Source: Methylicorpusculum oleiharenae (GTDB lineage: Bacteria; Pseudomonadota; Gammaproteobacteria; Methylococcales; Methylomonadaceae). From it: DNA of 64,000 nucleotides. A program made the position numbers and the translations under genes. Every line of letters starts with the position of its first letter. Position 1 is the stretch's first letter. Positions 30,672 to 59,215 of the stretch are shown here, piece by piece. The notes under the pieces are model-generated. The model worked only from the letters and a program-made list of their open reading frames with translations. It searched no databases and was not told the origin of the DNA. Where the stretch lies: positions 62,001 through 126,000 of the forward strand of contig NZ_WUTY02000001.1 in the NCBI RefSeq assembly GCF_009828925.2, read 5' to 3'.

Positions 30672-30705
30672 AAAATTTACAAAGTTAATTTAATGCTTTA
30701 CAACG

Positions 30706-30741
30706 AGCTTTAAGGGGCGATTAAAATCGCCCCTTAAAGCT
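30706..30741. terminator. Bidirectional intrinsic terminator
   Basis: A perfect 16-bp stem, AGCTTTAAGGGGCGAT and its reverse complement, around a TAAA loop, with T-rich flanks on the right and A-rich on the left. It sits between two convergent beta-helix genes and would serve both. Confidence 0.88.
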
Positions 30742-30804
30742 TTAGATCATCGGGAAGTACGTTCAAGACCAGTCCACTGCATTCTGCGAAAAAATATAAG
30801 GTCA

Positions 30805-32901
30805 CTATTTAATCAACCCAATATCAGCAGGCAGCGATGTAAAACCAATACGTTTTACCGGTGACTTATCACAAAACTTAACCGTGTTATTGGTAAGAGT
30901 GAGACAAGGGTCTTGATTGATGCTGTTCCTCTCCATGCCTTCTTCCAGCCATTGCAGCCACAACATGCCGGTTTTTTTCTCCTGCTTATCCAATAGGTGA
31001 TAATCCACTCGAAATACTCCGTTGGTACTCCAAACCAGATTGTCCGAAATGATGTTATTGTCATACGGCAAAAAATATCTGAGCGATCGACCATCGGGCT
31101 TGGTCGTTATAATGATATTGCGCTGAATGCGGTTACCCTCGGGCCACTTTTCATTATTCATGGATCTTTGTAATTCAGGATATTTAGCCCGCCATAAACT
31201 GCTTTGATACGGCATGGCCTTCAGGTTTTTCTGATTTTCGGACCATTTATAATCCGGCCAACGGTTATCGACCCAAATGGCATAAACATCGGTGATAAAC
31301 ACGTTGTTTTCTATTGTGTTGTCGCGCCCTCCTCCCAGTTGAATAGCTTTTGTTCCGGCATGATTAAATAGGTTGCCATAGATCGTAAAACCGCTCACGG
31401 CATCATCCAAATAGACACCAATTACGTCTTTTGATTTAACATATTCCACTGTATTTTTGGCAATATCCACAGCTTTCAAGCCATAGCCGTAAATATCATG
31501 CAAACTGTTATAGCGAATAATATTTCCCCGGTAGGTCCAGTCTCTTCCCGAATAAATGGCACCGCAATCGGACGCTTCTTCACATAAATGATGCAGCTCA
31601 TTTTTTTCGATCAAATGCTCATTGCCATTAATCAAGATACCCATGCTAGGGCCATTTTCAATCAAATTATGTGTAATGATTTGTCCTACACCTTGAACAT
31701 CAATTGCAGCGGCTAAATTTTTGACTATCTCGGCAAAATGGGAAAAATGGTTATTGATTATGCTATGTAGGCCCGGATAAAGTGTTTTTCTTTCGCCGCC
31801 TATAGCCAAGATTCCACCTCGCCCTAAATGATGAAAATAGCCATCTTTAACACTAATATTTTGGCCGCCGTTGATTTCTATCGCTTTAGCACCGGCATTT
31901 TTTATCTCCAGTTTCTCCAGTATTACGTTGTCTGATTTAGTGATGACCACGGCACTGTGGACAGCTTCCTCAAAACTCAGATTACTGAAATTCAGGTTTT
32001 TTGCCCCGTCGACGGTCATCAGGTTTTTTTGGACAGAAACACTGATCTTTTGCGGTGCTTGACCAAAAGGTGGAATAAACTGAATGCGCTCCTTGTCCCG
32101 ATCGTAGAACCATTCTCCCGGCACATCCAATTGCGACTGAACATTCAGCAAATAAAACCGGTGCCCGCTTTTTAAGGGATACGCTGTCTCGCTACCTACG
32201 GTTATTTTATTGGTACCAAAATCAATCGTCTTAACAGGAAGATATTCATCAAACCAATCATTACCCGGCCAAATATGCACATGTGCCTGACTCAACCCAT
32301 TTTCATCAAGTGGGATGGTTTCAAATGTAGTGAATTGTGTTTTTGCATCCAGGGGCACTTTGATGTGAGCCCACCCTTCATTTGGCCAGCGCGCCAATCG
32401 CATTCTTTGCCCATCAACAAAGAGCTCAAAACCCGGCAAACTGCCTTTGATTCTCCCGGTTTCCTTAAGTTTGCTTGGGCCGAGATTTAACCCTCTTACG
32501 GAGCACGACCAGACGGATGCTTGCTCGGGCAAACAGTCCGTCAATGGTTTACCACCGCTGAGGGTTATTTTTTCGCCTTCTTTGCCCTGCCAACGCGTAA
32601 CGGCTTCATTGAGACCGGAATCTCGCAAATCAAAGCTCAATGGTTTGTCTAGATAATAAATGCCCCCGGCAATATTGACGGTTGTTTGGCCTTGTAATAC
32701 TCGTTTAGCTTTTAGTTTTCTAATTTCTTGCTGAGCCCGATATAGCGTTTGAAATGGGCCGTCTGTTTCTTCCCTATTGGCTTGATCCAGGGCGCCACTC
32801 CATTGATCACGGCCGTTTGGACTTACATACAGCTCAAGTGCCTGGGCCGCATTTGAGCCAAATAAAACTGTTATACTCAACAAAACTTTTATCCATGATT
32901 T
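30805..32901 (-). CDS. Secreted right-handed beta-helix protein
   Basis: The start is best placed at ATG 32901 (MKSWIKVLLSITVLFGSNAAQA, a signal peptide), not the longer frame from 32934. Mature sequence LELYVSPNGRDQWSGALDQ..DGPFQTLYRAQQEIRKLKA is a beta-helix opening. It is followed by an inserted beta-sandwich region (SLPGFELFVDGQRMRLARWPNEGWAHI) and long beta-helix repeats with Asn ladders (ENNVFITDVYAIWVDNRWP). About 698 residues. Similar architecture to the 27543 product but no detectable recent duplication. Convergent with it, sharing the terminator at 30706-30741. Confidence 0.82.
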   Translation of the reverse strand, partial: KSWIKVLLSITVLFGSNAAQALELYVSPNGRDQWSGALDQANREETDGPFQTLYRAQQEIRKLKAKRVLQGQTTVNIAGGIYYLDKPLSFDLRDSGLNEAVTRWQGKEGEKITLSGGKPLTDCLPEQASVWSCSVRGLNLGPSKLKETGRIKGSLPGFELFVDGQRMRLARWPNEGWAHIKVPLDAKTQFTTFETIPLDENGLSQAHVHIWPGNDWFDEYLPVKTIDFGTNKITVGSETAYPLKSGHRFYLLNVQSQLDVPGEWFYDRDKERIQFIPPFGQAPQKISVSVQKNLMTVDGAKNLNFSNLSFEEAVHSAVVITKSDNVILEKLEIKNAGAKAIEINGGQNISVKDGYFHHLGRGGILAIGGERKTLYPGLHSIINNHFSHFAEIVKNLAAAIDVQGVGQIITHNLIENGPSMGILINGNEHLIEKNELHHLCEEASDCGAIYSGRDWTYRGNIIRYNSLHDIYGYGLKAVDIAKNTVEYVKSKDVIGVYLDDAVSGFTIYGNLFNHAGTKAIQLGGGRDNTIENNVFITDVYAIWVDNRWPDYKWSENQKNLKAMPYQSSLWRAKYPELQRSMNNEKWPEGNRIQRNIIITTKPDGRSLRYFLPYDNNIISDNLVWSTNGVFRVDYHLLDKQEKKTGMLWLQWLEEGMERNSINQDPCLTLTNNTVKFCDKSPVKRIGFTSLPADIGLIK

Positions 32902-32924
32902 CATCGCCTGAACCTCTTTTAAAC

Positions 32925-33713
32925 ATGACGCCAATTAATCCAATACACAACCTTAGCAGGGTTACGATACTCGGTTTAGATTTTCCTTTACTTAATTATT
33001 CATTAACGCTGGATATTTTTAGTCATTGGATAGCAGAAAAAACTGCGCATCAGGTCTGTATTGCCAATGTGCATACGATAGTGTTGAGCCGGACTGACAG
33101 CGAACTAAAGGCAATCAACGAAAAAGCTTTGGTAACGATGGACGGATTACCGCTGGTTTGGTACGCCAATTGTGTACATAACGCTAACCTTAAAGATCGG
33201 GTCTGTGGGCCCGAGTTAATGCTGCGCTGTCTGGATGAAGGCCGGAGCAAAGGCTGGCGACATTTTTTTCTGGGCGGTAAAGACGCCGTACTGATTGATT
33301 TGGTTAGCAAGATGCGGGAGCGCTTTCCCGATGTTGAAATCGTGGGCTGGCATTCCCCCCCTTTCAGAGCATTGTCTGAACAGGAAGATGCCGATTTGGT
33401 TGAGATGATCAATAGCCTGCAACCGGATTTTTTATGGGTCGGGTTAGGCGCACCCAAGCAAGAAAAATGGATTGCTGCGCATCTTGCCCGTGTCAATGTT
33501 CCGGTACAAGTCGGCGTGGGTGCCGCTTTCGATTTTCATTCGGGCCATGTCAAACGTTCACCTGTCTGGATGCAAAAGATGGGCTTGGAATGGGTCTATC
33601 GCATGCTTCAGGATCGCCGATTGATAAAACGCTATTTAATGACCAATCCGGTTTTTTTGGCGTTGTTTTTAAGAGATTTCATCAAAGCAAAAATTTGGAA
33701 TTTTTCTAATTAA
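32925..33713 (+). CDS. WecG/TagA/CpsF glycosyltransferase (GT26), intact parent copy
   Basis: GT26 enzymes transfer a UDP-linked amino sugar or uronate to lipid-linked GlcNAc in surface polymer synthesis. The protein from ATG 32925 is about 262 residues, the family length. ATG 32895 is possible but the extension is not family-like. Motifs: ITLGLDFPLLNYSLTLDI-type start, HTIVLSRTD, TMDGLPLVWYAN (DG motif, proposed catalytic Asp), FFLGGKDAV, GWHSPPF, LWVGLGAPKQEKWI and VGVGAAFDFHSG, then the C-terminal membrane-binding tail RLIKRYLMTNPVFLALFLRDF. It is divergent to the minus-strand beta-helix gene. Truncated copies lie at 40376, 41934, 43520, 48233 and 49955. Confidence 0.9.
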   Translation: MTPINPIHNLSRVTILGLDFPLLNYSLTLDIFSHWIAEKTAHQVCIANVHTIVLSRTDSELKAINEKALVTMDGLPLVWYANCVHNANLKDRVCGPELMLRCLDEGRSKGWRHFFLGGKDAVLIDLVSKMRERFPDVEIVGWHSPPFRALSEQEDADLVEMINSLQPDFLWVGLGAPKQEKWIAAHLARVNVPVQVGVGAAFDFHSGHVKRSPVWMQKMGLEWVYRMLQDRRLIKRYLMTNPVFLALFLRDFIKAKIWNFSN

Positions 33714-34180: not shown

Positions 34181-34342
34181 TTAAATGCTGTATACCTGAC
34201 ATTCGAACCGACAATTTTCGAGAAGATCGCAAGCAGTGATCGACTCAAACCATCCGGACGCAGTTCTTCAAACCGGACAGTCAGCCTAATCGGGATTTTG
34301 CGGACTGGATAGCCAGAAAGCAGCCATTGGCGACCACACCCA

Positions 34343-34788
34343 ATCGGCCATTATGTGAAGTTTCCTTTTATGTGTAGCGGCTTTGGCGCAACTATGATGT
34401 AAGCTGTCTTTAAAGCCCCTACCTCGTTCACAATCTTTGCATAATTTCCATGATTTAAAACAAGCTTTCAAATACACCCAAAGGGAGCAATATCAGCGAT
34501 TATTCCAGTCGATGTCATCAGACGTATCGAATTCTCACTTTTTATCGACATCATGGATAAATTCCGCGTGATTGTTTCCCTGTTGGAAGCAATATTTAAG
34601 TAGAAAAAGCTATCTGTAGTACTGAGGGTTAGTTTCTGAATGGAACTACAGAAAATCGACTCCTGCAGTTTGCAAAAATTATGATCAGCTTTTTATCTGG
34701 CTGCCTTGCTCAATCCGCTATATACCTAGCGTCAACTATGAGAAACCAAGACAATGTGCATAAAAGGAAACTTCACATAATGGCCGAT
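34343..34788. mobile_element. 446-bp element bounded by a 30-bp perfect inverted repeat
   Basis: The left arm (34343-34372) and right arm (34759-34788) are exact reverse complements, beginning ATCGGCCATTATGTGAAG. The interior has no ORF of note. A related element with partly similar ends (GGCCACTATGTGTAG) lies at 36167-36569, so these look like a non-autonomous element family. No clear target duplication. Confidence 0.65.
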
Positions 34789-40123: not shown

Positions 40124-40195
40124 GTTGGATTCCTTATTTAACGTATGAAAAGGGAAGGTTGGGGTCAGAGTAAAATTAAATACCAACATTTGCCT

Positions 40196-40307
40196 AACCC
40201 CGTAAGGTGGATTTGCCAAAATGCAATCCCCCATGGCTTTGAAGAACACTGGCGTTTTGCAGTCGCGAAAACGCCCTACCGCTTATCGATTTTTACATCA
40301 AGTTGTG
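40196..40307 (+). repeat. Two-hairpin element, copy 6
   Basis: Full-length, with a decayed first hairpin and intact GGCGTTTT-type second hairpin. Followed by the standard leader and a wecG fragment. Confidence 0.85.
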
Positions 40308-40375
40308 TTATTTGGCTTAATTTCTTTGTGTTAGGCGACCGCTTTGTGTCTTGTGCTCCTAGGTCCTTGTTCGAC

Positions 40376-40422
40376 AAAGCCTTGGTAACAATGGACGAAT
40401 TACCGCTGGTTTGGTACGCCAA
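40376..40422 (+). pseudogene. wecG fragment A (catalytic motif only)
   Basis: Encodes KALVTMDELPLVWYAN, then is cut by the half two-hairpin element (copy 7, 40421-40470). The Gly of the DG motif reads Glu, as in the other truncated copies. Confidence 0.8.
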
Positions 40423-40726
40423 CCCGGTGAGGCGGATTCGCCAACTGACAATCCGCCATGGCTTTATCGAATGTTCAAATGCTGTATACCGACATTCGAA
40501 CCGACAATTTTCGAGAAGATCGCAAGTGGTGATCGACTCAAACCAGCCGGACGCAGTTCTCCAAATCGGACAGTCAGCCTAATCGGGATTTTGCGGACTG
40601 GATAGCCAGAAAGCAGCCATTGGCGACCTCGCCCAATCGGCCAATTTTTGACTGTCAGCAGTTGCTGTTCAGGTGTCTGGATTAGCCTCAACAACAGACG
40701 TTAATGTAATGCTCAGAGGCGAAGCG

Positions 40727-40957
40727 TTAGCGGAGTTCGCCGGAGCGTTGGGTTAGGCTGTTTGTACGCTTGGCTACCTCAATGAGATAACGTAATGCTT
40801 CATTAACGGCTTCGGCATTTGGAAACGCAGCGATCACGTCAGGCTCTAAACGAACGGTATCACAAAACCTTTTGCGCCCCGGCCCCAGTTTCCTTACTTG
40901 TAAGTTTTGTAAATCATACTCGGGCCGTAATTCATCTTCTATTTCACTCTTGTTCAT
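40727..40957 (-). CDS. brnA: BrnA-family antitoxin
   Basis: Start at ATG 40957 (MNKSEIEDELRPEYDLQNLQVRKLGPGRKRF). The ribbon-helix-helix is VRLEPDVIAAFPNAEAVNEALRYLIEVAKR. 76 residues. Overlaps the toxin 3' end by 14 bp, in the toxin-first order of brnTA. Confidence 0.85.
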   Translation of the reverse strand: MNKSEIEDELRPEYDLQNLQVRKLGPGRKRFCDTVRLEPDVIAAFPNAEAVNEALRYLIEVAKRTNSLTQRSGELR

Positions 40958-41216
40958 AGGCTTTCCGCTCCGATAGCGTTGCTTCTCTAGCACTGATTAA
41001 TCGAATGCTATTGTTACGCTCCATATAGGAAACAAACAATAGTCTCCCCTGGGCCGATTCACCCAACAGGATAAAACGGTGTTCTCCGAAGGAATGGTCA
41101 GGGTCATAGAAATCTACATACAATGGATCATCAAAAACTGTTTTTGCCTCTTCAAAATAAACCCCATGCTTTGACAAATTTGCTACCGCTTTGTTTTTAT
41201 CCCAGTCGTATTTCAT
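40944..41216 (-). CDS. brnT: BrnT-family toxin
   Basis: Start at ATG 41216 (MKYDWDKNKAVANLSKHGVYFEEAKTVFDDPLYVDFYDPDHS). The family hallmark WD..K...N..KHGV.FEEA..VF.D and RFILLGESAQGRLLFVSYMER...IRLISAREAT are complete. RelE-fold ribosome-dependent or free RNase. Intact. Confidence 0.9.
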   Translation of the reverse strand: MKYDWDKNKAVANLSKHGVYFEEAKTVFDDPLYVDFYDPDHSFGEHRFILLGESAQGRLLFVSYMERNNSIRLISAREATLSERKAYEQE

Positions 41217-41572
41217 TGAAGCCATATCCTTCGCGCACATCAGTTTGCACTATATCTGCATTCCTTCTTTTTTAGCAAGTATCTGCATCTACGAGTCACG
41301 ACTGGGACGTCTCATCTCGCACGGATTAGGCTTGATTCTCAGAGAGCAAAGCCATTACCTCAACAACGACAGTTTTATCTGGCGGAAAGACAGCGCCAAA
41401 AAAAAGCAGGTTACTTTTCATGCATGAATTAAACCTGACCCCTTTTTCGCTTTTTCGAAACGGTTTTAGAGTCAAAAGGGAGTAATATAGGATGATGATA
41501 TGGACTCCTCCTCACCCCTAAATGGTGTCAAAATGCACCGACTAATTTAACCGGAAGAAAGAGGTGCCTGTC

Positions 41573-41803
41573 ATGAATCGTAACGTAATGGGTTTGGATA
41601 TTGCAAAGCAAGTATTTCATTTGTTCTCGATGAAAGATGGCAAAGCCGTGAAAAGGAAGTTGAAGCGGTCTGAGTTGTTGGCGTTTATCGCACAGCTGCC
41701 CGTGAGCTTGATCGCGATGGAAGCGTGTGGTGGAGCGCATCATTGGGCTAGGGAGTTTACAGCCTTGGGCCACGAAGTGGTGTTATTGAACGCCCGCTTC
41801 GTT
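41573..41803 (+). pseudogene. IS110-family transposase, N-terminal fragment
   Basis: MNRNVMGLDIAKQVFHLFSMKDGKAVKRKLKRSELLAFIAQLPVSLIAMEACGGAHHWAREFTALGHEVVLL: the RuvC-like DEDD domain start (Asp of GLDIAK, Glu of MEACGGAHHW). Cut after NARF by a two-hairpin element at 41804. The rest of the transposase is absent. Confidence 0.85.
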
Positions 41804-41912
41804 AACCCGGTAAGGCGGATTCGCCACCAGACAATCCGCCATGGCTTTGAAGAATGTTGGCGTTTTGCTATCGCGAAAACGCCCTACCGGTTATCGATTT
41901 TTACATCGGGTT
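41804..41912 (+). repeat. Two-hairpin element, copy 8 (consensus-like)
   Basis: Best-preserved copy. Both hairpins are perfect (GGCGGATT/AATCCGCC and GGCGTTTT/AAAACGCC) and the outer arm AACCCGG / CCGGTT is closed. Inserted into the IS110 fragment; followed by a shortened leader and wecG fragment B. Confidence 0.9.
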
Positions 41913-41933
41913 GTGTTGTTTGGCTTAATTTCC

Positions 41934-42297
41934 TGGCATTCTCTCCCTTTCAAAGCATTGTCCGAACAGGAAGAGCCGATTTGATTGAGATGATCAATAA
42001 CCTGCAACCACATTTTTTATGGGTCGGAATAGGCGCTCCCAAGCAAGAAAAATGGATTGCTGCGCATCTTGCTCGTGTCAATGTTCCGGCACAGGTCGAC
42101 GTGGGTGCCGCTTATGATTTTCATACGGGTCATGTCAATCGTGCACCTGTCTGGATGCAAAAGACGGGCTTGAAATAGGTCTATCGCATGCTCCAGGATC
42201 GCCGGTTGATTAAACGCTATTTGATGACCAATCCGGTATTTTTGGCGTTGTTTTTAAGAGATTTCATCAAAGCAAAAATTTGGAATTTTTCTAATTA
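41934..42297 (+). pseudogene. wecG fragment B (C-terminal half)
   Basis: Starts abruptly in the GWHSPPF motif and runs to the gene end (FSN, stop). It shares a one-base deletion (gaagagccgat for gaagatgccgat) with the copy at 43520. It also has TAG replacing Trp in the GLEWVYRM stretch (GLK*VYRM). Downstream flank matches the parent for about 40 bp. Confidence 0.85.
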
Positions 42298-42727
42298 ACC
42301 CCAAAGATCAAGAACAGCTCATTTTGGCTTTTTTGCTCCGACTGGAGTTATCGCGATTGATGCGGTTCGTACCTTTCCGCATCCTACTGACTTTGTACGC
42401 GTGAATTGTTGAAATACAGGGTAGTTTTGCGTAACACAGTGAAGCAAACCCATGAGGAAGGACGATTCCCAAATCAAGCCATCCAGGTGTAATGACTATC
42501 GACGAATACACCTAACAAATCTGTCACTTACGGGTTGACGACAACTGTCCAGAAACAGAGGGTAAGCGACATGCAGTCCAAATCCGGGTTGTCGGCGAAC
42601 TAATAAATACTAAGCTGTCAGTCAATATCGAAACCTGCCTTTTTACGTGACTGATAGGTGATTGTCCTCCGACATTGAATCATGTCATTGCTAAGCTAAG
42701 TGGTTGCAGCTATGCTACCGCATACTG
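42298..42727. other. Intergenic with wecG 3' flank and dispersed repeat
   Basis: Begins with DNA homologous to the parent wecG downstream region (agatcaagaacagctcattt). Then a recurring segment follows, gattgatgcggttcgt..ccgcatcctactgact (42354-42395), also present near 44272 and 48365. The rest is unassigned. Confidence 0.55.
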
Positions 42728-43150
42728 ATGAAAATTGTCGTAGATACCAATATTTTTTTGGCTGTCTGTTTAAGCCAAGGCTCTGCTAACTCGGTGATCG
42801 CTGCGTGTTTACGAGGTCAGGCCATTCCTTTGATGGGCACGGCATTATTTAACGAGTACGAAGATGTACTGGCCCGGACAACGTTATTTCACCGTAGTCG
42901 TCTGAGTGCTGAAGAGCGTAATGAGCTTCTGGATATTTTCCTCTCGATTTGTCAGTGGACGCGAATCTATTATGGCTGGCGGCCGAATCTAATTGACGAG
43001 GGTGATAATCATTTGGTCGAGCTAGCGGTTGCCGGTAATGCACAATTTATAGTAACTCGCAATCTTCGTGATCTATCCAGAATGGAATTGAATTTTCCGC
43101 ATTTGACTGTACTGACACCTGAAGCATTTTTGAAGGAAATAGCAGCATGA
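42728..43150 (+). CDS. PIN-domain toxin, PIN_3 type
   Basis: Start at ATG 42728 (MKIVVDTNIFLAVCLSQGSANSVIAACLRGQAIPLMG). PIN motifs: DTN (Asp), LFNEYEDVL (Glu), LIDEGDNHLVELAVAGNAQFIVTRNLRD (Asp, Asp). About 140 residues, overlapping the antitoxin by ATGA. An RNase toxin of the putative-TA PIN family. Intact. Confidence 0.87.
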   Translation: MKIVVDTNIFLAVCLSQGSANSVIAACLRGQAIPLMGTALFNEYEDVLARTTLFHRSRLSAEERNELLDIFLSICQWTRIYYGWRPNLIDEGDNHLVELAVAGNAQFIVTRNLRDLSRMELNFPHLTVLTPEAFLKEIAA

Positions 43151-43356
43151 CAGCACTGACCGTAAGACTCCCCGATGACAAGTACCGTCGCCTTAAAGAG
43201 GTGGCTCATCAGCGTGGCACCAGCGTCAACCGTCTGATCGACGAAATGGCCACTTTGATGCTCGCTGAGCTGGATGCTGAAACTCGTTTTTTAATTAGAG
43301 CGGAAAGAGGTCGTGGAAACTTGGCGCGAGGCTTAGAATTGCTTGAGAAAGACTAA
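43147..43356 (+). CDS. Ribbon-helix-helix antitoxin
   Basis: A 69-residue HicB/Arc-like antitoxin: LTVRLPDDKYRRLKEVAHQRGTSVNRLIDEMATLMLAELDAETRF, ending ELLEKD. The TAA stop is supplied by the first bases of the two-hairpin element that begins at 43355, so the natural last residue or two have been replaced. Confidence 0.85.
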   Translation: MTALTVRLPDDKYRRLKEVAHQRGTSVNRLIDEMATLMLAELDAETRFLIRAERGRGNLARGLELLEKD

Positions 43357-43434
43357 CCCGGTAAGGCGTTGAAGAACACTGGCGTTTTTCTATCGCGAAA
43401 ACGCCCTACTGCTTATCGATTTTTACATCGGGTT
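43355..43434 (+). repeat. Two-hairpin element, copy 9 (first hairpin deleted)
   Basis: aacccggtaaggcg runs directly to ttgaagaacactggcgttttt. Only the second hairpin and the tail are kept. Supplies the stop codon of the antitoxin gene. Confidence 0.85.
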
Positions 43435-43519
43435 GTGTTTTTTGAGCTTATTTTTCTTTGCGTTAGGCGACCGCTTTTTTTCTCATACTCGTAGCTGAAA
43501 ATACCAGTCCCTGTTCGTT

Positions 43520-44110
43520 AAAGCCTTGATAACAATCGACGAATTACCGCTGGTTTGGTCCACCAAATTGTATGTACAACGCTAACCTTAAAGATCGGGT
43601 CTGCGGTCCCGAGTTAATGCTGCGCTGTCTGGACGAAGGCCGGAGCAAAGGCTGGCGGCATTTTTTTCTGGGCGGTAAAGACGCCGTACTGATTGATTTG
43701 GTTAGCAAGATGCGGGAGCGCTTTCCCGATGTTGAAATCGTGGGCTGGCATTCTCCCCCTTTCAAAGCATTGTCCGAACAGGAAGAGCCGATTTGATTGA
43801 GATGATCAATAACCTGCAACCACATTTTTTATGGGTCGGGTTAGGCGCACCCAAGCAAGAAAAATGGATTGCTGCGCATCTTGCCCGTGTCAATGTTCCG
43901 GTACAGGTCGGCGTGGGCGCTGCTTTCGATTTTCATTCGGGCCATGTCAAACGTGCGCCTGTCTGGATGCAAAAGACAGGTTTGGAATGGGTCTATCGCA
44001 TGCTCCAGGATCACCGATTGATAAAACGCTATTTGATGACCAATCCGGTTTTTTTGGGGTTGTTTTTAAGAGATTTAATCAAAGCAAAAATTTGGAATTT
44101 TTCTGATTAA
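43520..44110 (+). pseudogene. wecG fragment C (composite repeat)
   Basis: Begins at the KAL-TIDELPLVW codons. It passes through NANLKDRVCGPELMLRCLDEGRSKGWRHFFLGGKDAV to GWHSPPFKALSEQEE, then loses frame through a one-base deletion. It resumes as MINNLQPHFLWVGLGAPKQEKWIAAHLARV to the C-terminus. The first about 65 residues of the parent are absent. Confidence 0.88.
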
Positions 44111-44367
44111 ACCCAAAATCAGGATCAGCTTATTTGGGCTTTTTTGAGTCGCCTGGGTTTAGCTAATCGGGTAAATGTGCGATATTAATAACGGTCGGTA
44201 TATGTCACACTTGCTGCCGATCAGTGGCCTTTTTTTGTAGAATTGCGGTGTGCGCAGAAACCGCGTCGTATGCGATTGATGCGGTTCGTGCCTCACCGCA
44301 TCCTACTGACTACGAATTCCTTTATGGGATGTTTTCCTGTTAAATTTTTGTTTCTTTGGAGTTCCAC
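44111..44367. other. Intergenic, wecG 3' flank plus dispersed repeat
   Basis: The left part matches the downstream flank of the parent wecG. The gcgattgatgcggttcgtgcc..ccgcatcctactgact repeat lies at 44270-44312 with a small ATGCGGT..ACCGCAT hairpin. The leader of the PEP-CTERM gene follows (GGAG at 44358-44361). Confidence 0.5.
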
Positions 44368-44981
44368 ATGAAGAATCTAGTTAAGTTAAGTTAATTTGTT
44401 TTGCAATTATCGTTTCAATTGGCACAATCAAAACTGCATATGCAACATTAATAACTCTAGATATTAAATGGGGAAGTCCACCAATAACGGCTAAAGGGTT
44501 TATTACTTTCGACGCCTCGTTATTGGAAATAACCAATCCCCAAGGCGGCTTTAATCTGCCTCGCTCAGCCATTTCCGATCTAGGCATAACCATATCCGGC
44601 GCATCAATTGGCAATGGAACTTTTGGGCTGAGTGACTTCAATTCCATTTGGTTTTATTCACCAAGCCGCCTTGATTTTGGCACTGAATTAATTGGTCAAT
44701 CGCTTAGCAATGGCTGTCTTTTTGGCGTATTGTACTGTGATACAGGTATTCCAGGTGACGACATTGGTAACTTCACTTTAGATGGTGCAACTCCAGCCGA
44801 CCCCACAGCGTTTTACTGGTTTGACCTCACGACAGCTGGCGGAGATGGTGATAGTATCGGAGTAGTATCCATAAAACCCGTTCCTCTTCCAAGTAGCTTA
44901 ACGCTTTTCGGTTTGGGCTTGGCAGGTATGAGGTTAATCCGGACAAAAAAGATTCGGGATTTAAAAATGGCCTATAAGTGA
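44368..44981 (+). pseudogene. PEP-CTERM exported protein, out of frame at a GTTAA repeat
   Basis: ATG 44368 (RBS GGAG) opens MKNLVKLS and stops at codon 9. The downstream frame gives a signal-peptide core LICFAIIVSIGTIKTAYA, then the mature domain (TLITLDIKWGSPPITAKGF...), and ends with a PEP-CTERM-like anchor VPLPSSLTLFGLGLAGMRLIRTKK. The shift is caused by three tandem GTTAA units at 44380-44394. With two units the leader and body are in one frame. PEP-CTERM proteins are exported and sorted by exosortase. Could be phase-variable or simply a dead allele. Confidence 0.75.
44380..44394 (+). repeat. Triple GTTAA repeat in a signal-peptide coding region
   Basis: Three exact tandem 5-bp units. 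Unit loss or gain changes the frame of the PEP-CTERM gene: 2 or 5 units are in frame, 3 or 4 are not. Confidence 0.85.
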
Positions 44982-44984
44982 GGG

Positions 44985-45060
44985 GGATTCGCCGACAGGC
45001 AATCCGCCATGGCTTTGAAGAATATTGGCATTTTGCGACTTGGCAATAAAACGAGAATAT
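44985..45060 (+). repeat. Two-hairpin element, copy 10 (decayed)
   Basis: ggattcgccgacaggcaatccgcc is kept, with only a weak second hairpin (ggcattttgcgacttggcaata). It lies between two convergent PEP-CTERM genes. Confidence 0.7.
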
Positions 45061-45068
45061 CCCATAGA

Positions 45069-45710
45069 TTATCTCGTAAAGGCAAGGAGTCCAGGCTGCC
45101 GTTGAATACACAGTAATAGAGCAAAACCCACCAGAAAAAATAGAGCGGATGCCGGTACTGGTACCGGCACGACCAACACACCAATTGCGGAACCTGTAGT
45201 GAGAACACGCAGGAGCGGTGTGCCAGCTTGTTCCAAAGTGGTTGCGCCACCCCTTATTTCATAAGACCCGTGTAAAGCCCATTGGGGGTCGGAGTAAACG
45301 CCGGGATTGAAAGGGACCAAACCTCCCGCTTGCGTGAATGCCACTCCTGATCCGAATGCCAAATATCCTTCTGATATTTCCAATATTACACCTCCTCCAC
45401 CTTGCCCGGCGTATGTCACTGATGCTGGTGTGTATTCATAACCAGTCATACCATATGGTCCATTGCGGGACTTGATATCGAAATCAATAAAATTTGAGGA
45501 ATTTCCATCGGGGTCGAGTGGTTCCAAAAGAAACCAACCCGTCAATTCAGTTCCATCATCGAATTTTGCGTTGTTGAGCTCCCAACGGACGAAACTCGCC
45601 TGCGTCTCTGGACTAACGACGAGCATTGCACTCAACGCAACGATTGAAAGAAAACCTGTAATGGTGTTTATTACCGGTAATCCTAGAGATAGTCTATTCA
45701 ATACTCGCAT
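45069..45710 (-). CDS. PEP-CTERM exported protein
   Basis: Start at ATG 45710 (MRVLNRLSLGLPVINTITGFLSIVALSAMLVVSPETQA, signal peptide). Mature domain of about 150 residues (FVRWELNNAKFDDGTELTGWFLLEPLDPDGNSSNFIDFDIKS) and a C-terminal sorting segment VPVPASALFFLVGFALLL followed by basic residues. Typical of PEP-CTERM surface proteins of unknown role in exopolysaccharide-producing bacteria. Intact, unlike its neighbour. Confidence 0.82.
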   Translation of the reverse strand: MRVLNRLSLGLPVINTITGFLSIVALSAMLVVSPETQASFVRWELNNAKFDDGTELTGWFLLEPLDPDGNSSNFIDFDIKSRNGPYGMTGYEYTPASVTYAGQGGGGVILEISEGYLAFGSGVAFTQAGGLVPFNPGVYSDPQWALHGSYEIRGGATTLEQAGTPLLRVLTTGSAIGVLVVPVPVPASALFFLVGFALLLCIQRQPGLLAFTR

Positions 45711-45766
45711 CGTTCTCCCAAAATATAAAAGGATGATTCCATTTGCCATCTATGTTCGTCAAAACA

Positions 45767-45874
45767 AACCGGTAAGGCGGATTCGCCATCAGGCAATCCG
45801 CCATGACTTTGAGGAATATTGGCGTTTTGCAATGGCGAAAACGCCCTACCGATTATCTATTTTTACATCGAGTT
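45767..45874 (+). repeat. Two-hairpin element, copy 11
   Basis: Full-length with both hairpins intact (GGCGGATT/AATCCGCC; GGCGTTTT/AAAACGCC). Confidence 0.88.
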
Positions 45875-45949
45875 GTGTTTTTTCGTTAGACGACTGTTTT
45901 TGTCTCATGCTCATAGCTGACCCGTCCTTGTAGGTCAAAGCCTTGTTCA

Positions 45950-46025
45950 GGCAAATGGCTAGGATCGGATTTCGATTTGGTAAATCCGTTCCTGCCCGTC
46001 TTTGGCTTTGACATCGACAAAGATT
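45950..46025 (-). pseudogene. Rpn-family nuclease scrap
   Basis: Reverse strand encodes VDVKAKDGQERIYQIEI, matching the larger rpn relic at 48950-49030 (same DNA, nearly identical). Confidence 0.8.
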
Positions 46026-46160
46026 AAGTAGTGTCAAGTCTTGCAATCAAAACACACAAGTTCCAGTTGGGGATTTCTATTTAACGATTGCCAACGCAAG
46101 ACCGGCTCTCATTGTTTGTTAGCGGGGCGTCCCTTGCCGTAACGTTAGGACACCCTGAAT

Positions 46161-46430
46161 TCAATGGTCTTCGTAATGTCCACCAACTGCAAAGATGTAA
46201 ATGGATTTTTCATCAAATTTATAAATGAGTCGATCTTTTTGAGAAACTCGCCTCGACCATAATCCAGTTAGGTTGTGTCGAAGCTGCTCGGGTTTACCCA
46301 AGCCTTTGCTTGGGTCATCACGTAGCATTTCTTTTAAGAGTATACAGAGAGCTTTGTGTAGCTTTTTATCTTTGTCACGAAGCTCTTCGTAGGTTTCCCA
46401 GGTTCTACCCTCAAATACGAGTGATCTCAT
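46161..46430 (-). CDS. yoeB: YoeB/Txe-family toxin
   Basis: An 89-residue RelE-fold mRNA endonuclease: FEGRTWETYEELRDKDKKLHKALCILLKEMLRDDPSKGLGKPEQLRHNLTGLWSRRVSQKDRLIYKFDEKSIYIFAVGGHYEDH. The GLWSRR...RLIYK and C-terminal GHYEDH are the catalytic signatures of YoeB (Glu, Arg, His). Overlaps the antitoxin by 20 bp. Intact. Confidence 0.92.
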   Translation of the reverse strand: MRSLVFEGRTWETYEELRDKDKKLHKALCILLKEMLRDDPSKGLGKPEQLRHNLTGLWSRRVSQKDRLIYKFDEKSIYIFAVGGHYEDH

Positions 46431-46683
46431 TCAGTTCGTCGCTAGTCGGGGTATAGCCGGAGTTATTGTTGTGAGTTGCCACTGATACGGCAATCTGTTT
46501 CATTAGGCTGCTGTTCTGGAGAACGTAAAGAGTTTCCTGTTCTCGCTCCCAGTCGTCTGCACTCATAACCACAAAAGCTTCACCTGCCCTGCGAGTTACC
46601 TTTAGGGGGACATGATTACTAACCACATGTTCTACAAGGGATTTTAGTTTATCTCTAAACTGGTTTACGCTAACTGTATCCAT
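46411..46683 (-). CDS. yefM: YefM/Axe-family antitoxin
   Basis: Start at ATG 46683 (MDTVSVNQFRDKLKSLVEHVVSNHVPLKVTRRAGEAFVVMSADDWEREQETLYVLQNSSLMKQI), with GGAG at 46691-46694. The Phd/YefM DNA-binding N-terminus and toxin-binding C-terminus are complete. Confidence 0.9.
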   Translation of the reverse strand: MDTVSVNQFRDKLKSLVEHVVSNHVPLKVTRRAGEAFVVMSADDWEREQETLYVLQNSSLMKQIAVSVATHNNNSGYTPTSDELNEITRI

Positions 46684-46696
46684 ATTTGACTCCATA

Positions 46697-46715
46697 TGTA
46701 CGGAAATACCGTACA
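46697..46715. promoter_or_regulatory. YefM operator-like palindrome
   Basis: TGTACGG-5 nt-CCGTACA, just upstream of yefM. YefM operators in E. coli contain TGTACA-type cores, so the match supports autoregulation. Confidence 0.75.
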
Positions 46716-46835
46716 AGTGTAGCAGACACCCCCTAGTAACGCTATCAACCTGATGTCCAAAACCAGCTTCACTTTGGTCGCAGGTTATAGCTGCGTTGAA
46801 TGGCAGCCCATTGAATCCCTGTCGTCATTGAGCAC

Positions 46836-46911
46836 AACCCGGTAGGGCGGGGCAAGCCGCCATGGCTTTGAAGGCTGTTGGCGTTTTGCTATCGCGAAAA
46901 CGCCCTACGGG
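46836..46911 (+). repeat. Two-hairpin element, copy 12 (no tail)
   Basis: aacccggtagggcggggcaagccgcc then a perfect GGCGTTTT-AAAACGCC hairpin and a closing ccctacgggt. The gatttttacatcgggtt tail is missing. It abuts the ISAs1 end. Confidence 0.82.
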
Positions 46912-46926
46912 TCCAGGGCAAACGCA

Positions 46927-48048
46927 TTAAAAATTATCCGCAAACAACACCTTGCTACGAAAATCGCCATCCCAAGCGGCCATTTTGCGTTTTTTAGCAA
47001 GCCTTAGTTTTGAAGGCTCTTTTTGGAACAGATTCAAAACGAGATGTCGGATACTCGTCATAATACTTGGAGCGTTTCCCTTGCGAATCCGGCTGGCATC
47101 TTCTCGAAGCACGACATCCATCCGCCAATGCAGGATATTCTCAATCCCCCAGTGTCCCCGCGCCGCATAGGCAAATGTTTTAGCAACAGGCGGAATAGAG
47201 TTGATGAAAAAACGCTTTTCCTTAAACTGTTTACCGGCTTCTTCGTATTCTCTTTCAACCATGCCGATAGTCCGTAAACCTGCTCAAGATTCTGTTTTCG
47301 GCAGTGTGCGCAAATCGTCGGTGATCCAGTAGCGGCGAGTTTCCAAGCGCCCATGGCCGTGCTCCACTTCCTCCACATAATCATATTTTATTGGTTTAAA
47401 ACCAGCCGCTTGAGCCGTCGTGAAATAATCCTCGACGGCTTCATGCAGGCTGCCTTGATTACCTTTCAGGCCCAACACATAGTCGCCACCTTGATCGACG
47501 ATCTGTTTAGCAATGTCTCGTTGACAGCCCATTGCGTCAATGCTCACAATGCAGCCTTTTAGCTCCAGTAATGCCAACAGTTTGGGGATGGCGGTAATTT
47601 CATTCGACTTCTCATTTGTCGCTTCCTGGCCTAAAACCACTCGGTTTGAAGCGCTCCATGCACTCACCCTATGCAACGGGTTTTTGCTGTTTTTTCGATC
47701 TCGCGATCCCCGCGCCGTTTTGCCATCCACACTGATCAGTTCACCCTCTGTTTGCGTGTTCACGCTTTGTGTCCAACTAATAAAGCACTCTTGGAAAGCT
47801 TTAGGTGACAACCTTGATATGACATACGCTATACAGTCATGAGAAGGTATACCGTTTTTTAATGGAACAAAACGCCTGAGCCAATCTAATTGGTTATGAC
47901 CGAAATCGGCTATATCTTCCCAGCCGTCAGCACCACTGATCACGGCACATACGGTTAAAACGATGATGTCCATTAACTCATGCCGCTTATTACGGTTTAT
48001 TCGAGGATCGGGTAATTTCGAAAAATACTCTACAAAACAGGGGGTCAT
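46927..48048 (-). pseudogene. ISAs1-family transposase with one in-frame TGA
   Basis: Two pieces in one frame. The first (48048-47284) is MTPCFVEYFSKLPDPRINRNKRHELMDIIVLTVCAVISG..., with SVDGKTARGS and SIDAMGCQRDIAKQI. It stops at TGA 47284-47286, where family members have Trp (KTESWAGLRTIG). The second piece continues in the same frame (MVEREYEEAGKQFKEKRFF...GHWGIENILHWRMDVVLREDASR, with the catalytic Glu region). A single G-to-A change would restore a 373-residue transposase. Ends of the element not resolved. Confidence 0.88.
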
Positions 48049-48130
48049 ATACTTTTATTGCAAAAAGTATTACTTTAATCTCGTAATATACTGTTTTTCA
48101 AATTATTTATATGCGTTTTCCCTGCCTACG

Positions 48131-48320
48131 GGTCATGCCTTTTTACAGCGGGTTGTGTTTTTTAGTTTAATTTCTTTCCTTAACGAAGGCTGTCATTCCG
48201 GCATGGATTACCTCGCATCTTGATGACGCCCATGTTCATGTTCAATTCGGCGTGGGGCTGCTTTTGATTTTCATTCGGGTCATGTCAATCGTGCACCTAT
48301 CTAAATGCAAAAGATGGGCT
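48131..48320 (+). pseudogene. Decayed composite repeat: element tail, leader and wecG fragment D
   Basis: tttttacagcgggttgtgttttttagtttaatttcttt (48131-48168) is the tail and leader of a two-hairpin element whose front is lost to the ISAs1 side. At 48233-48320 a wecG remnant (VGLLLIFIRVMSIVHLSKCKRWA region read in the wrong frame) matches the parent near 33500-33580. Confidence 0.65.
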
Positions 48321-48420
48321 AACCACCGTTTACGCAGACTCTATCGAATTCCTGCAAGTTTGCAATTAATGCGGTTCGTACCACACCGTTTCTTGCCGGC
48401 TGGAAACGTTTAAATTGGAA

Positions 48421-49145
48421 CTATTTCTTGTCCAGAAGTGCTTTAAGACGCTCAATTTCAGCTAACGCAGCTTCTTCCCTTAGCTTAGCCTGCATTAACT
48501 CTCGTGCTGTTTCTTCTAATTCACGCTGGATAGCCCTCTGCTCCCGCAGATATTCTTGCCGGCTTGGTATTGGTGGTATTGACGTTCTTTTTCTGAAAAA
48601 GTGCTTAACGTGCTCATGGCTTGTTTCATCTCCTGCGTTATCATCCAGTCCGGTAAAGACCATCGTTTAACTGCTCACCGACTTTGAAAAACTGTAACCA
48701 GCGTTGATCTTCTGACTCAATCCGGTTTGCATCAAACTTGTTTAATTCCAGCAGCCAGATGCCGCCATGTTGAATGAATGTTTTTCCTTGTTCATCACGG
48801 ACTTTGTAATGATGCACATACTCGTTATCATCGGTTATCAGGTTTTCGGCCAATAGCCAAATGGCATAAGTGGGTTTCAGTTCGCCGTAATCTTGATTAC
48901 TTTTTAATTGCTGGCTGTAGATGTCAGACCAATTGTAAATGATCCTGGCTGGCAAATGGCTATGGTTGGTCAATTGGATTTCGATTTGGTAAATCCGTTC
49001 CTGCCCGTCTTTGGCTTTGACATCGACAATGCTGAGCTTATCGCTTAAAAATTCCTTTTCATTATAGGGATTCAAGATCTCCACTCAAACAATCGGCTCT
49101 GAAAGCTCCTGAGCCAAAAACGCATTCAAAAAGTGAATTTTCAAT
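48421..49145 (-). pseudogene. Rpn-family nuclease (PD-(D/E)XK), multiply broken
   Basis: Right to left: FLNAFLAQELSEPIV, TGA, VEILNPYNEKEFLSDKLSIVDVKAKDGQERIYQIEIQLTNHSHLPARIIYNWSDIYSQQL, ..QRWLQFFKVGEQLNDGLYR, then a frameshift (WMITQEMKQAMSTLSTFSEKER in the other frame) and a second shift to QEYLREQRAIQRELEETARELMQ. The D..E-x-K catalytic stretch (IVDVKAKD..QIEIQL) is preserved. Its 5' end is missing. Dead by three lesions. Confidence 0.85.
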
Positions 49146-49178
49146 GATATAGCTTGTAAAGATGGGTGTTGCACTATT

Positions 49179-49201
49179 ATGTATATTTTCATAATATACA
49201 T
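49179..49201. promoter_or_regulatory. BrnA operator-like palindrome
   Basis: ATGTATATT-5 nt-AATATACAT ends 2 bp before the brnT start codon. BrnTA is known to be repressed through an operator of this kind of placement. Confidence 0.7.
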
Positions 49202-49203
49202 TT

Positions 49204-49503
49204 ATGATAGATTTAGCTAAAGTCACCGGATTTGATTGGGACGTAGGAAATAGTCAAAAAAATCTTAAACACAGCGTATCAACGGCTGAGTCTGAGCAAG
49301 TATTCTTCAATGCACCACTGCTACTGTTAGAAGATTTTAAGCACAGTCAATTGGAACCACGTTTTCATGCGTTGGGCAAAACAGACAATGAACGGCTTTT
49401 ACATATTTCATTTACATTACGCAATGATGGTATGACTATCCGCGTTATCTCGGCGAGAGTCATGCATAAAAAGGAGCGTTCAATTTATGAACAAACAACT
49501 TAA
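49204..49503 (+). CDS. brnT: BrnT-family toxin
   Basis: A 99-residue BrnT: VTGFDWDVGNSQKNLKHSVSTAESEQVFFNAPLLLLEDFKHSQ, then RFHALGKTDNERLLHISFTLRNDGMTIRVISARVMHKKE. Diverged from the other BrnT at 40944. The palindrome before it probably controls the operon. Intact. Confidence 0.88.
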   Translation: MIDLAKVTGFDWDVGNSQKNLKHSVSTAESEQVFFNAPLLLLEDFKHSQLEPRFHALGKTDNERLLHISFTLRNDGMTIRVISARVMHKKERSIYEQTT

Positions 49504-49753
49504 AACCATTCCACATTTTTCCAATGAAGAGGAAGAACGCATTTTTTGGGAAAGTCACGATTCCACTGACTATCTCGATTGGAGCCATGCCCAGTCGGTT
49601 GTACTGCCCAATTTGAAGCCAACAACCAAGACCATTTCGTTGCGATTACCACAACATTTGCTGGACTCAATTAAAGCGGCGGCAAATTCTCGGGATGTGC
49701 CCTACCAATCACTGATTAAGGTCTGGTTGCAAGAGAAAGTGCAAAATCATTAG
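49487..49753 (+). CDS. brnA: BrnA/CopG-family antitoxin
   Basis: An 88-residue antitoxin overlapping brnT by 17 bp: LKTIPHFSNEEEERIFWESHDSTDYLDWSHAQSV, then RHH TKTISLRLPQHLLDSIKAAANSRDVPYQSLIKVWLQEKV. Followed 6 bp later by a two-hairpin element. Confidence 0.87.
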   Translation: MNKQLKTIPHFSNEEEERIFWESHDSTDYLDWSHAQSVVLPNLKPTTKTISLRLPQHLLDSIKAAANSRDVPYQSLIKVWLQEKVQNH

Positions 49754-49758
49754 ACCAT

Positions 49759-49867
49759 TAACCCGGTAAGGCGGATTCGCCATCAGGCAATCCGCCATAA
49801 CTTTGAAAAATATTGGCGTTTTGCTATCGCGAAAACGCCCTATCGGTTATCGATTTTTACATCGGGT
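49759..49867 (+). repeat. Two-hairpin element, copy 13 (full)
   Basis: Complete element with perfect first and second hairpins. The full leader (gtgtttttttgagcttattt ... cgttagacgaccgc ... ccctgttcg) links it to wecG fragment E. Confidence 0.9.
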
Positions 49868-49954
49868 TGTGTTTTTTTGAGCTTATTTTTCTTTGCGTTA
49901 GACGACCGCTTTTTTTCTCGTACTCGTAGCTGAAAATACCAGTCCCTGTTCGTT

Positions 49955-50545
49955 AAAGCCTTGGCAACAATGGACGAATTACCGCTGGTTTGGTACGCCA
50001 ATTGTGTGCATAACGCTAACCTTAAAGATCGGATCTGCGGTCCCGAGTTAATGCTGCGCTGTCTGGATGAAGGCCGGAGCAAAGGCTGGCGGCATTTTTT
50101 TCTGGGCGGTAAAGACGCCGTACTGATTGATTTGGTTAGCAAGATGCGGGAGCGCTTTCCCGATGTTGAAATCGTGGGCTGGCATTCTCCCCCTTTCAAA
50201 GCATTGTCCGAACAGGAAGATGCCGATCTGGTTGAGATGATCAAAAGCCTGCAACCGGATTTTTTATGGGTCGGGTTAGGCGCACCCAAGCAAGAAAAAT
50301 GGATTGCTGCGCATCTTGCCCGTGTCAATGTTCCGGTACAAGTCGGCGTGGGTGCCGCTTTCGATTTTCATTCGGGACATGTTAAACGTTCACCTGTCTG
50401 GACGCAAAAAACGGGCCTGGAATGGGTCTATCGCAAGCTCCAGGATCGCCGGTTGATTAAGCGCTATTTGATGACCAATCCGGTATTTTTGGCGTTGTTT
50501 TTAAGAGATTTCATCAACGCAAAGATTAGGAATTTTTCTACTTAA
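49955..50545 (+). pseudogene. wecG fragment E (longest, frame open)
   Basis: The composite repeat with an undamaged frame: TTG 49961 or ATG 49970 opens MDELPLVWYANCVHNANLKDRICGPELM and runs to the normal C-terminus. It lacks the first about 65 residues of the parent (the Rossmann start), and Gly of the DG motif is Glu. Whether it is expressed is unknown. It would lack part of the donor-binding fold, so I call it a pseudogene. Confidence 0.8.
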
Positions 50546-51100
50546 ATCCTGCAAACAAGCACTGAGAAAGTCAAAATAAACTTAAATCAATAATAGTATT
50601 TATTCATATCCAGCAATTGAGTAGTCATGATTATGATGAACCATCACGCCGCAAGCCAATCCCACCTCTGTTTACCACCCCTCGAACACAAAAGGGCAGT
50701 AGGTTACAGTATTAGCGAAGTTGTGTATAACGGTTGGTATCAATTTAGGTACTAATATAGTACCTATATTTCCAGGTTAATACGCGTCAGTAATTTTTAT
50801 TAATGACGCGTATTACTGACGCGTGTTACAGACTTGGATTTTTTAGTCAGTAACATACATATGGGAGATCGGCTTTTCATCTTTTACAAGGCACCCCAAA
50901 TGTAGCCATTTTTAGGGGTCTCATACAACGTTTTGACATGCGAGTTTTACATGATTTTTATAGCTAAAAAATACCGGTTATTTTTACCGAAAAAACACCT
51001 GTTATTTATGACTTGTTTTTTACCCCTTTTTGGAGGCGTTTCAAAAGTGTACCCGATTGCAATATCCTAGCCTGGTTTAGACCTTATGATAGAAAATTAA
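50546..51100. other. Intergenic with triple ACGCGTCA motif
   Basis: No gene. At 50782-50789 ACGCGTCA, and at 50804-50811 and 50817-50824 TGACGCGT: one forward and two reverse copies able to form alternative hairpins. Otherwise nothing recognised. Confidence 0.45.
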
Positions 51101-57317: not shown

Positions 57318-58307
57318 CTAGCCGCCTCGTAGAGAGGCAATCAACTGGTCCGGCGCACGGAACTGACCACGTTTAAGCGTAAGCGGGACCATCGCACTCA
57401 TCGCCTCAAGTTTTTCGGTCGGATCAGCGCGTAGATAGACTTCGGTCGTCTGGATATCCCCATGTCCAAGCCACAACGATACCTTTCGGATATCGCCTGT
57501 TGCTTGCAATACCACCATCGCGGCGGTGTGACGTAGGACATGAGGAGATATCCGTTTTTTCTCAATAGATGGGCAACGTTTAGCAGCCACTTCCACATGT
57601 TTCTTCAGCACATACTCGAAGCCCGATCTGGTCATGGGTTCTCCGTGTGCATTTAGGAAGAGTTCTGTCGCAGCTGGTTGTCCTCGCACGGCAAGCCATG
57701 CACGCAGATCGGAAGCTGCCTGCTTCCAGAGTGGCAATAGACGTTCTCGACGCCCTTTACCGAAAATGCGTACATTGGGTGATGGTTGCCACTCCAGCGC
57801 CTGTAATGGGAGATGAACCAGTTCGGATACTCTCAGTCCTGCCGAAAAACAGAGGTGGATCATAGCTCGATCACGGATACCGTCGCGGCGTTTCAGATCC
57901 GGTACATTGAGCAGTGCCTGCATTTCGTCTAATGACAAATAATTGATTAGCCGTGTATCTGTTCGCTTTGCGGGAATGGCTAAGATACGTCGGCTCTGCT
58001 CTAAGAGAGCGGGTTCTCTATATTCCATAAAGCGCATAAATGACTTGATCGCAACGAGCCTAGCATTGCGTGTGCGCGGGCTGTTGTCGCGCTCCGTTTC
58101 CAGATATTGCAAGAAATCCATCACCAAAGCGGCATCGAGTTGCTCAAGGAAGAGCGCGGAGGGTGTCACATGCAACCGAGCGGCGGCAAATTGAAACAAC
58201 AGTTGAAAAGCGTAGGCATAGCTGTCGCAGGTATGCTCGCTCGCGGCTCGTTGTAGCGGCAATCGTTCTTGTAGAAATGCGGTGATATGAGGGGCGATCG
58301 GAGTCAT
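57318..58307 (-). CDS. ritC: Tyrosine recombinase RitC
   Basis: Start at ATG 58307 (MTPIAPHITAFLQERLPLQRAASEHTCDSYAYAFQLLFQFAAARL). XerD-type core with AGLRVSELVHL (Arg), HVLRHTAAMVVLQ (His-x-x-Arg), LWLGHGDIQTTEVYLRAD (Gly-His and catalytic Tyr). 329 residues. ATGA overlap with ritB (58304-58307). An alternative upstream frame overlapping ritB is not credible. Confidence 0.88.
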   Translation of the reverse strand: MTPIAPHITAFLQERLPLQRAASEHTCDSYAYAFQLLFQFAAARLHVTPSALFLEQLDAALVMDFLQYLETERDNSPRTRNARLVAIKSFMRFMEYREPALLEQSRRILAIPAKRTDTRLINYLSLDEMQALLNVPDLKRRDGIRDRAMIHLCFSAGLRVSELVHLPLQALEWQPSPNVRIFGKGRRERLLPLWKQAASDLRAWLAVRGQPAATELFLNAHGEPMTRSGFEYVLKKHVEVAAKRCPSIEKKRISPHVLRHTAAMVVLQATGDIRKVSLWLGHGDIQTTEVYLRADPTEKLEAMSAMVPLTLKRGQFRAPDQLIASLRGG

Positions 58308-59215
58308 GGTGTATTTTCCTCGACGAAATGTTCGCAGGCGCGAACGATGTGATCCATTAAGAGCGGTGAACTTTCTAAATACCAAAACGTACTGTTTGGG
58401 CTGGCATGACCCAAGTACGTCATCAACGCCAGCGTGTGGCGACCGACCTGATCGCGACGATCCGGGCCGTCTACGAGTGCATTCGACGCGAAGGAATGAC
58501 GAAAATCGATTAGCCTTGGTCGTGGCAGCCCAGATTGGCGAGGGAGACCGGCCATCTTCAGGAGCTCTTTGAATGTGGCATATACCGTCTGGCGGCACAT
58601 CCCACGACGCCACTTCGAGATAAACAAATGATCATCAGTAGTGGCGAGTTTAGCGCGTTCGACAAGATACTCTTCCAGTGCTAAATGCGTCGTGGGATGG
58701 AGCGGCACTATCCGGCTTTTGCCAAATTTCGTTTTCCGAATCAGCAGCCCATCCGCCATAATGTCCTTAAAACACAAGCCGAGCGCCTCGGAAATACGCA
58801 ATCCCGTAGACGCAAGTAACCCAATCAAGGTGCGATACATCAGTGGACGAAACGAATCTGCTGGCTCCAGCCGTGCTGCCGCACCCATCAATGCCTGAAT
58901 CTCTGCTTCGGTATAGAGATAGGGAATTGGTCGATGACGTTGAAAGCAAAATACACCTTGTGGTGGAATTTCATGGCGGTTGTCGGCGGCATAGCTAAAG
59001 CGGGCAAAGCGAATAACCGCTTTCAAGCGGATAGCGCGCTGTGATTCAGTTCGTGCCTGTCCTGCCCAAGCGATAGCCGTCTGTGACTTTACATGCGTGT
59101 CTCCCTGGGCAGTGGCAAATCGAGCGAAGTGAAACAGATAAAACGCATCGTCTGTGAGCTTAAAGCCCGCAGCGCGGCGTACGGCCAAATAAGTATCGAT
59201 GGCATCTTTTAGCAT
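58304..59215 (-). CDS. ritB: Tyrosine recombinase RitB
   Basis: Start at ATG 59215 (MLKDAIDTYLAVRRAAGFKLTDDAFYLFHFARFA). Motifs: LLASTGLRISEALGL (Arg), LIDFRHSFASNAL (His-x-x-Arg form), LMTYLGHASPNSTFWYLESSP (Gly-His and Tyr). 303 residues, overlapping the end of ritA by 7 bp. Confidence 0.88.
   Translation of the reverse strand: MLKDAIDTYLAVRRAAGFKLTDDAFYLFHFARFATAQGDTHVKSQTAIAWAGQARTESQRAIRLKAVIRFARFSYAADNRHEIPPQGVFCFQRHRPIPYLYTEAEIQALMGAAARLEPADSFRPLMYRTLIGLLASTGLRISEALGLCFKDIMADGLLIRKTKFGKSRIVPLHPTTHLALEEYLVERAKLATTDDHLFISKWRRGMCRQTVYATFKELLKMAGLPRQSGLPRPRLIDFRHSFASNALVDGPDRRDQVGRHTLALMTYLGHASPNSTFWYLESSPLLMDHIVRACEHFVEENTP

Follow-up and report, generated by a model that had tools for sequence, protein, structure and literature searches.

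The window analysed here, a 64,000-nt stretch from the genome of Methylicorpusculum oleiharenae, a relative of methane-oxidising bacteria, raises the question of how a 5'-truncated copy of the sugar-transferase gene wecG came to stand several times behind the same short hairpin element. An earlier note had proposed that element, leader and gene fragment spread together as one mobile unit. The comparison instead favours a reading that we consider likely, namely that the composite is a fusion point and not a transposon, formed by one fusion and followed by duplication and gene conversion through element and wecG homology.

The intact wecG, the whole-gene relative of the fragments, lies on the forward strand at 32925..33713 (PF03808, 198 bits; ORF 32754-33713). 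Four copies have one joint in common, in which the hairpin element runs into a right arm of 92-111 nt and then into wecG, cut at the same codon. The order element, leader, wecG was confirmed for the three copies first described (40196-40422, 43355-44110 and 49759-50545) and found again in a fourth, 11 kb past the window end (contig 136968-137865, window coordinate 74968-75865). The wecG part opens with AAAGCCTTG in 4/4 of these copies, as had been claimed, where the intact gene reads AAAGCTTTG. The leader motif cgttaggcgaccgc was given as a constant feature, but is exact at 43355 only and is 1-2 nt off at 40196, 49759 and 74968. Composite 1 (40196..40422, + strand) consists of an element core at 40196-40279, right arm at 40280-40371 and 51 nt of wecG at 40372-40422, the last being interrupted by a second element that starts at 40421. 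Composite 3 (43355..44175, +) has lost most of its first hairpin, its arm extends to 43519 and its wecG part covers 43520-44110, with 3' flank in common with the intact gene as far as 44175. Composite 4 (49759..50663, +) comprises an element at 49760-49877, an arm to 49954, wecG at 49955-50545 and a tail at 50546-50663 that resembles short stretches in two other genomes, G018 (73%) and G011 (80%).

Two further copies are derivatives. In composite 2 (41804..42349, +) the element occupies 41804-41921 and the leader is shortened, as previously described, ending after about 45 nt at 41932; furthermore, the first 224 nt of the common wecG part are gone, and the 3' part of the gene (41933-42298) restarts at the position matching 33347. 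Its 3' flank is common to the intact gene as far as 42349 and the first 50 nt of that flank are 98% alike. The copy at 45766..46020 (+) was said to hold the first two parts only; element and leader are indeed there, but they are followed by the 9-nt joint AAAGCCTTG and then by a scrap (45950-46020) matching 48951-49029 of a PDDEXK_2 gene, and since the joint is kept before the scrap this is probably a composite that lost its wecG. An old relic at 48125..48319 (+) combines the right part of an element (48125-48163), an unrelated stretch and a wecG scrap (48203-48319); it pairs with a scrap at 24276 in a sister genome, G001, with modest support (85/92). The wecG fragments probably do nothing as proteins.

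Aligned to 49759-50545, the 41804, 43355 and 74968 copies and the intact gene are 91-96% identical over 367-781 nt and the 40196 copy is 81% identical over 243 nt, a likeness that, on these alignments, is not due to chance. Plain tandem duplication from the intact gene, with elements inserted independently, would fit the 92-95% identity of the fragments to that gene, but the same element-wecG joint in four copies and a common substitution in the catalytic region point to a single joint. DG is changed to DE in all four composites of this genome that keep the catalytic motif, as had been reported, while the intact gene and the G001 copy have DG. The simple form of tandem duplication is refuted by the common joint, and we regard the reading as very unlikely. 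The earlier proposal that an ancestral junction formed once, mutated and was then copied is upheld by the joint, the common DE and the DG of G001. The one-base deletion noted in the 41804 and 43355 copies was also recovered (2/5 rows of this genome covering the site); the intact gene and the 49759 and 74968 copies are without it. A tree of the wecG copies gave nearly unresolved branching.

The leader, judged by its occurrence elsewhere, is the right arm of the element itself. A 194-nt element-plus-arm query matches sites without wecG at C1:4680744, 1841261 and 1923926 of this genome and in a genome of another genus (G025), among the best 13 scored candidates per genome. A 22-nt arm pattern was found in five genome_contigs records, with wecG in 0/5 over the roughly 160 nt covered behind the motif. 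Relatives were to be checked for the element with and without the fragment; the arm without wecG was common to all five records, and element joined to wecG was seen in this genome only, apart from the G001 derivative described below, among the best 8 scored candidates in each of 61 genomes. In three of the loci (L179, L180 and L182) element and arm follow the same antitoxin end that precedes the 43355 copy, again without wecG; carriers among the relatives include Methylovulum miyakonense (L182) and a Methylomicrobium MAG (L181). The arm runs on past the wecG attachment point in L179 and L180 and in several copies of this genome. Because the arm without wecG continues past the joint as GTCTCTTTTTGGCC or close variants, the joint truncates element and wecG alike.

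The age of the joint can be approached through the sister genomes. In G001, 10 nt of element tip stand behind a brnTA module (609 nt, 95.6%) and meet wecG at a common GGTAA. The copies of this genome contain the complete element, with 8 further bases of which 7 match wecG. The G001 site is read as an older composite after loss of element and arm; the match to wecG extends further upstream in the copies here, which makes the reverse order, with the G001 form first, less likely. The corresponding BrnT/CopG-type module of the window (49204..49753, +) adjoins the element at 49759, and it is this module that also lies beside a wecG fragment in G001. As the G001 copy is still DG, the joint would be older than the DG-to-DE change and copying of the DE form would have come later; the joint is probably older than the separation from G001 too. 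A close intact wecG is found in only one of the genus's three genomes, this one (G000), while G001 and the second sister genome, G002, hold fragments; G001 also has a 29%-identical wecG relative with an open frame. Neither G001 nor G002 has a match to the stretch before the common part of the intact gene (30700-33122), which was therefore gained here or lost in the sisters.

Evidence for how the joint was multiplied comes from mosaicism. By maximum chi-square, the element of the 43355 copy switches near column 88 from a likeness to 40196 to a likeness to 49759 (p=0.003, whichever of two reference rows is used); its wecG part is closer to 49759 as far as column 263 and closer to the intact gene beyond it (p=0.002). 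The p-values are uncorrected across nine such tests, of which three gave p<0.005 (two being the same switch against two reference rows), three 0.016-0.05 and three >0.1. To judge from these switches, recombination has taken place within both the element and the wecG part of the 43355 copy, the trace to be expected of exchange between an element resident to the left and a wecG resident to the right. Furthermore, of 20 ends of blocks that are collinear with G001:C3 or G002:C190, 7 lie no more than 15 nt from an element, where 5.1% would be expected (P=3.9e-5); the contigs were picked for holding wecG or element, and block ends are not independent. Without the three ends at composites the result is weaker (4/17, P=0.009). 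The count excluded wecG-against-wecG matches, blocks <300 nt and the tandem array at 1.9-4.8 kb. That array (1939-4785, period about 528 nt) also occurs at one end of G002:C190.

The favoured sequence of events would begin in the ancestor of this species and G001, where a deletion or similar illegitimate joining would have joined wecG to the right arm of a resident element, with both cut short at the joint. Local duplication within one toxin-antitoxin (TA)-rich island may then have multiplied the joint, as mosaicism, orientation and shared flanks suggest, and recombination or gene conversion between resident element copies on the left and wecG copies on the right would have spread it, the element acting as a homology patch. 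In line with this, relatives have elements at the left borders of the 43355 and 41804 copies that wecG does not directly follow. At the first border a PIN_3 toxin with a putative antitoxin that has no Pfam match (42704..43356, +) adjoins the element at 43355; in G001 the same module is followed by an element and then, 366 nt behind, by a diverged wecG scrap, and in another genus (G025, L182) the likeness to the PIN-antitoxin module is 93% in the TA part and 86% in the element part. The stretch 41933-43368, from inside wecG through the PIN module, is collinear with G001:C3 over 1441 nt at 93%. At the second border, the module at 40420-41545 meets an element without wecG in G002:C190; in this genome a transposase-like scrap, putatively IS110-like, lies between the module and the element.

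The rival closest to the original proposal is that the element captured wecG and that the whole composite transposes as a unit. The common joint in four copies would be expected of such a unit, as would the 899-column match (96.7%) between the 49759 and 74968 copies, which lie 25 kb apart with different outer flanks. This match is a point against fusion and recombination, as is the sharp left tip of the element in many copies; the G001 element with a wecG scrap 366 nt on is a third, and may mean that a composite was there early. Relatives without wecG may also have lost it. However, the putative unit has no fixed right end (40422, 42349, 44175 and 50663/75865), the two left borders just described carry elements without wecG directly behind in relatives, and the composites of this genome are confined to one 36-kb stretch (contig 102196-137865), in + orientation throughout. 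Searches of plasmid and phage collections gave no match, and viral contigs gave none to the arm motif. Comparison of both flanks of the 74968 composite with G001 and G002 revealed no empty site, since the left flank matches G002 only up to 48 nt before the element and the right flank has no collinear match in either, only a short repeat. An element at C1:3557k has its right flank, but not its left, collinear in G001. Transposition of the composite as a unit appears improbable, and the claim of one mobile unit is not sustained, given that the arm occurs without wecG, that composites are local and that their right ends differ. The favoured explanation remains a fusion copied by recombination.

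What kind of repeat the element represents bears on the same question. Its core of about 84 nt is bounded by short terminal inverted repeats and predicted to fold into two hairpins between them; outside lie GTAA on the left and, in many copies, CTAC (GTAG) on the right. The predicted ssDNA fold gave z of -2.4, -5.2 and -4.3 in three copies; for the 45767 copy the lowest-energy fold is one long stem, with two hairpins in the centroid only. An Rfam scan of the window returned nothing at the gathering threshold. The core length and the two hairpins between inverted repeats recall GTAG-type REP dimers or REPINs, which the consulted parts of two sources describe as two REPs in inverted orientation forming hairpins (PMC3116915, PMC3733652). 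Set against the same parts of those sources, the element differs in its long right arm and in its distribution, with 16 of 26 matches in this 5.85-Mb genome in one 69-kb stretch and 10 outside it (contig 67758-137079) (PMC3116915, PMC3733652). It lies on the + strand in 12/12 cases from 34127 to 74968, and matches in the three genomes number 25, 27 and 27, one of those in G002 being flank only. Helper genes looked for were Y1 transposases and integron integrases. No cognate RAYT flanked by the element was found at the 10 Y1 loci examined out of 13, with no match >14 nt, and for this reason it is not filed as a REPIN; one Y1 locus (L126) has another GTAG hairpin. As a short non-autonomous repeat beside host DNA it also resembles TIMEs and other bacterial MITEs, TIMEs being described in the consulted part of PMC4133298 as having 38-bp Tn3 ends, 5-6 bp target duplications and composite-transposon-like units. 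Unlike TIMEs as presented there, it showed neither target duplication nor dispersal (PMC4133298). Target duplications had been suggested as a check on the composites and none was seen by eye. In the gene at 5758, 131 nt of element replace 144 nt of a stretch uninterrupted in G001 and G002, with no target duplication and no precise empty site; the stretch so split is 5173-6329. Nor do copies have the same two ends, the left tip being common and the right ends different. The element is not shown to be a MITE or an integron site.

Rolling-circle elements (IS91/ISCR, Helitrons) copy neighbouring DNA with one fixed tip, and a one-ended mobility of this type would account for a left tip of AACC/AACCC in 10/14 listed element starts with right ends that vary between the 84-nt core, about 130 nt, about 195 nt, wecG and the PDDEXK scrap. 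Yet the 5758 insertion replaced target sequence, copies (40196, 72374 and 74968) have left flanks in common as well, and recombination between resident copies gives the same picture; we hold this reading to be decidedly improbable. Recombination and local duplication between dispersed repeats occur in bacteria, and the locus resembles their outcome in its mosaic copies, breaks at repeats, common orientation and local spread. It is unlike the usual case in that the copied tract is a repeat-pseudogene joint using homology on both sides. Through short hairpin repeats a gene fragment can come to resemble a transposable passenger even though repeat recombination is enough to spread it.

Three minor observations concern repeats near elements. 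At 14978-15163 the arm of a minus-strand element is broken by 186 nt of inserted sequence, which ends in TTCTACTTTG/CAAAGTAGAA, has duplicated TTAG and belongs to a separate MITE-like family. A second repeat family, at 34198-34358 and 40491-40651 (94% alike), is attached to the element's left half and is also present twice in G002:C190. The left flank GTAAAATTAAATACCAACATTTGCC, or close variants of it, occupies 40160-40195, window coordinate 72338-72373 and 10936-10963 of L039, the locus of the 74968 copy, and precedes three elements of this genome and one in G001.

The TA modules between elements (BrnT/CopG, PIN, YoeB and TumE-like), two of which adjoin an element tip directly, invite comparison with integrons, in which the element would be an attC site moved by an integron integrase. 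The modules stand in an array, and GCCTAAC...GTTAGGC at 40196 resembles what we take to be the consensus of attC ends. Against this, in neither G000 nor G001 did profile searches give an integron integrase that passed the cut-off (best in this genome 110.9 bits, cut-off 265); G025 has one and G002 two matches, each with one stop. GCCTAAC precedes only the 40196 element and one in G001, is changed at 72374 and 74968 and is absent at the other listed starts, and the breaks lie within wecG and at the element's left tip. With no integrase in the genome and GCCTAAC not general, the integron reading, to which we give hardly any credence, was set aside. A tentative extension, possible but unlikely on present evidence, is that the element is a generic, integrase-free and integron-like recombination joint, where TA modules and gene scraps, some of them directly at the element's left tip, would be exchanged among the species of this family and within each of them, with the wecG joint as one passenger. 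The data show no more than homology-driven exchange; nevertheless, a TA-element array with breaks at the element and one pair shared with another genus offers a testable case of integrase-free module shuffling.

Separately, three adjacent recombinase-sized genes lie at 57318-60450; the two that were scanned both match PF00589, and the three are presumably a recombinase-in-trio element. Equal-scoring matches occur in this genome at C1:3420616-3423259, C2:422294-424937 and C3:56465-59108.
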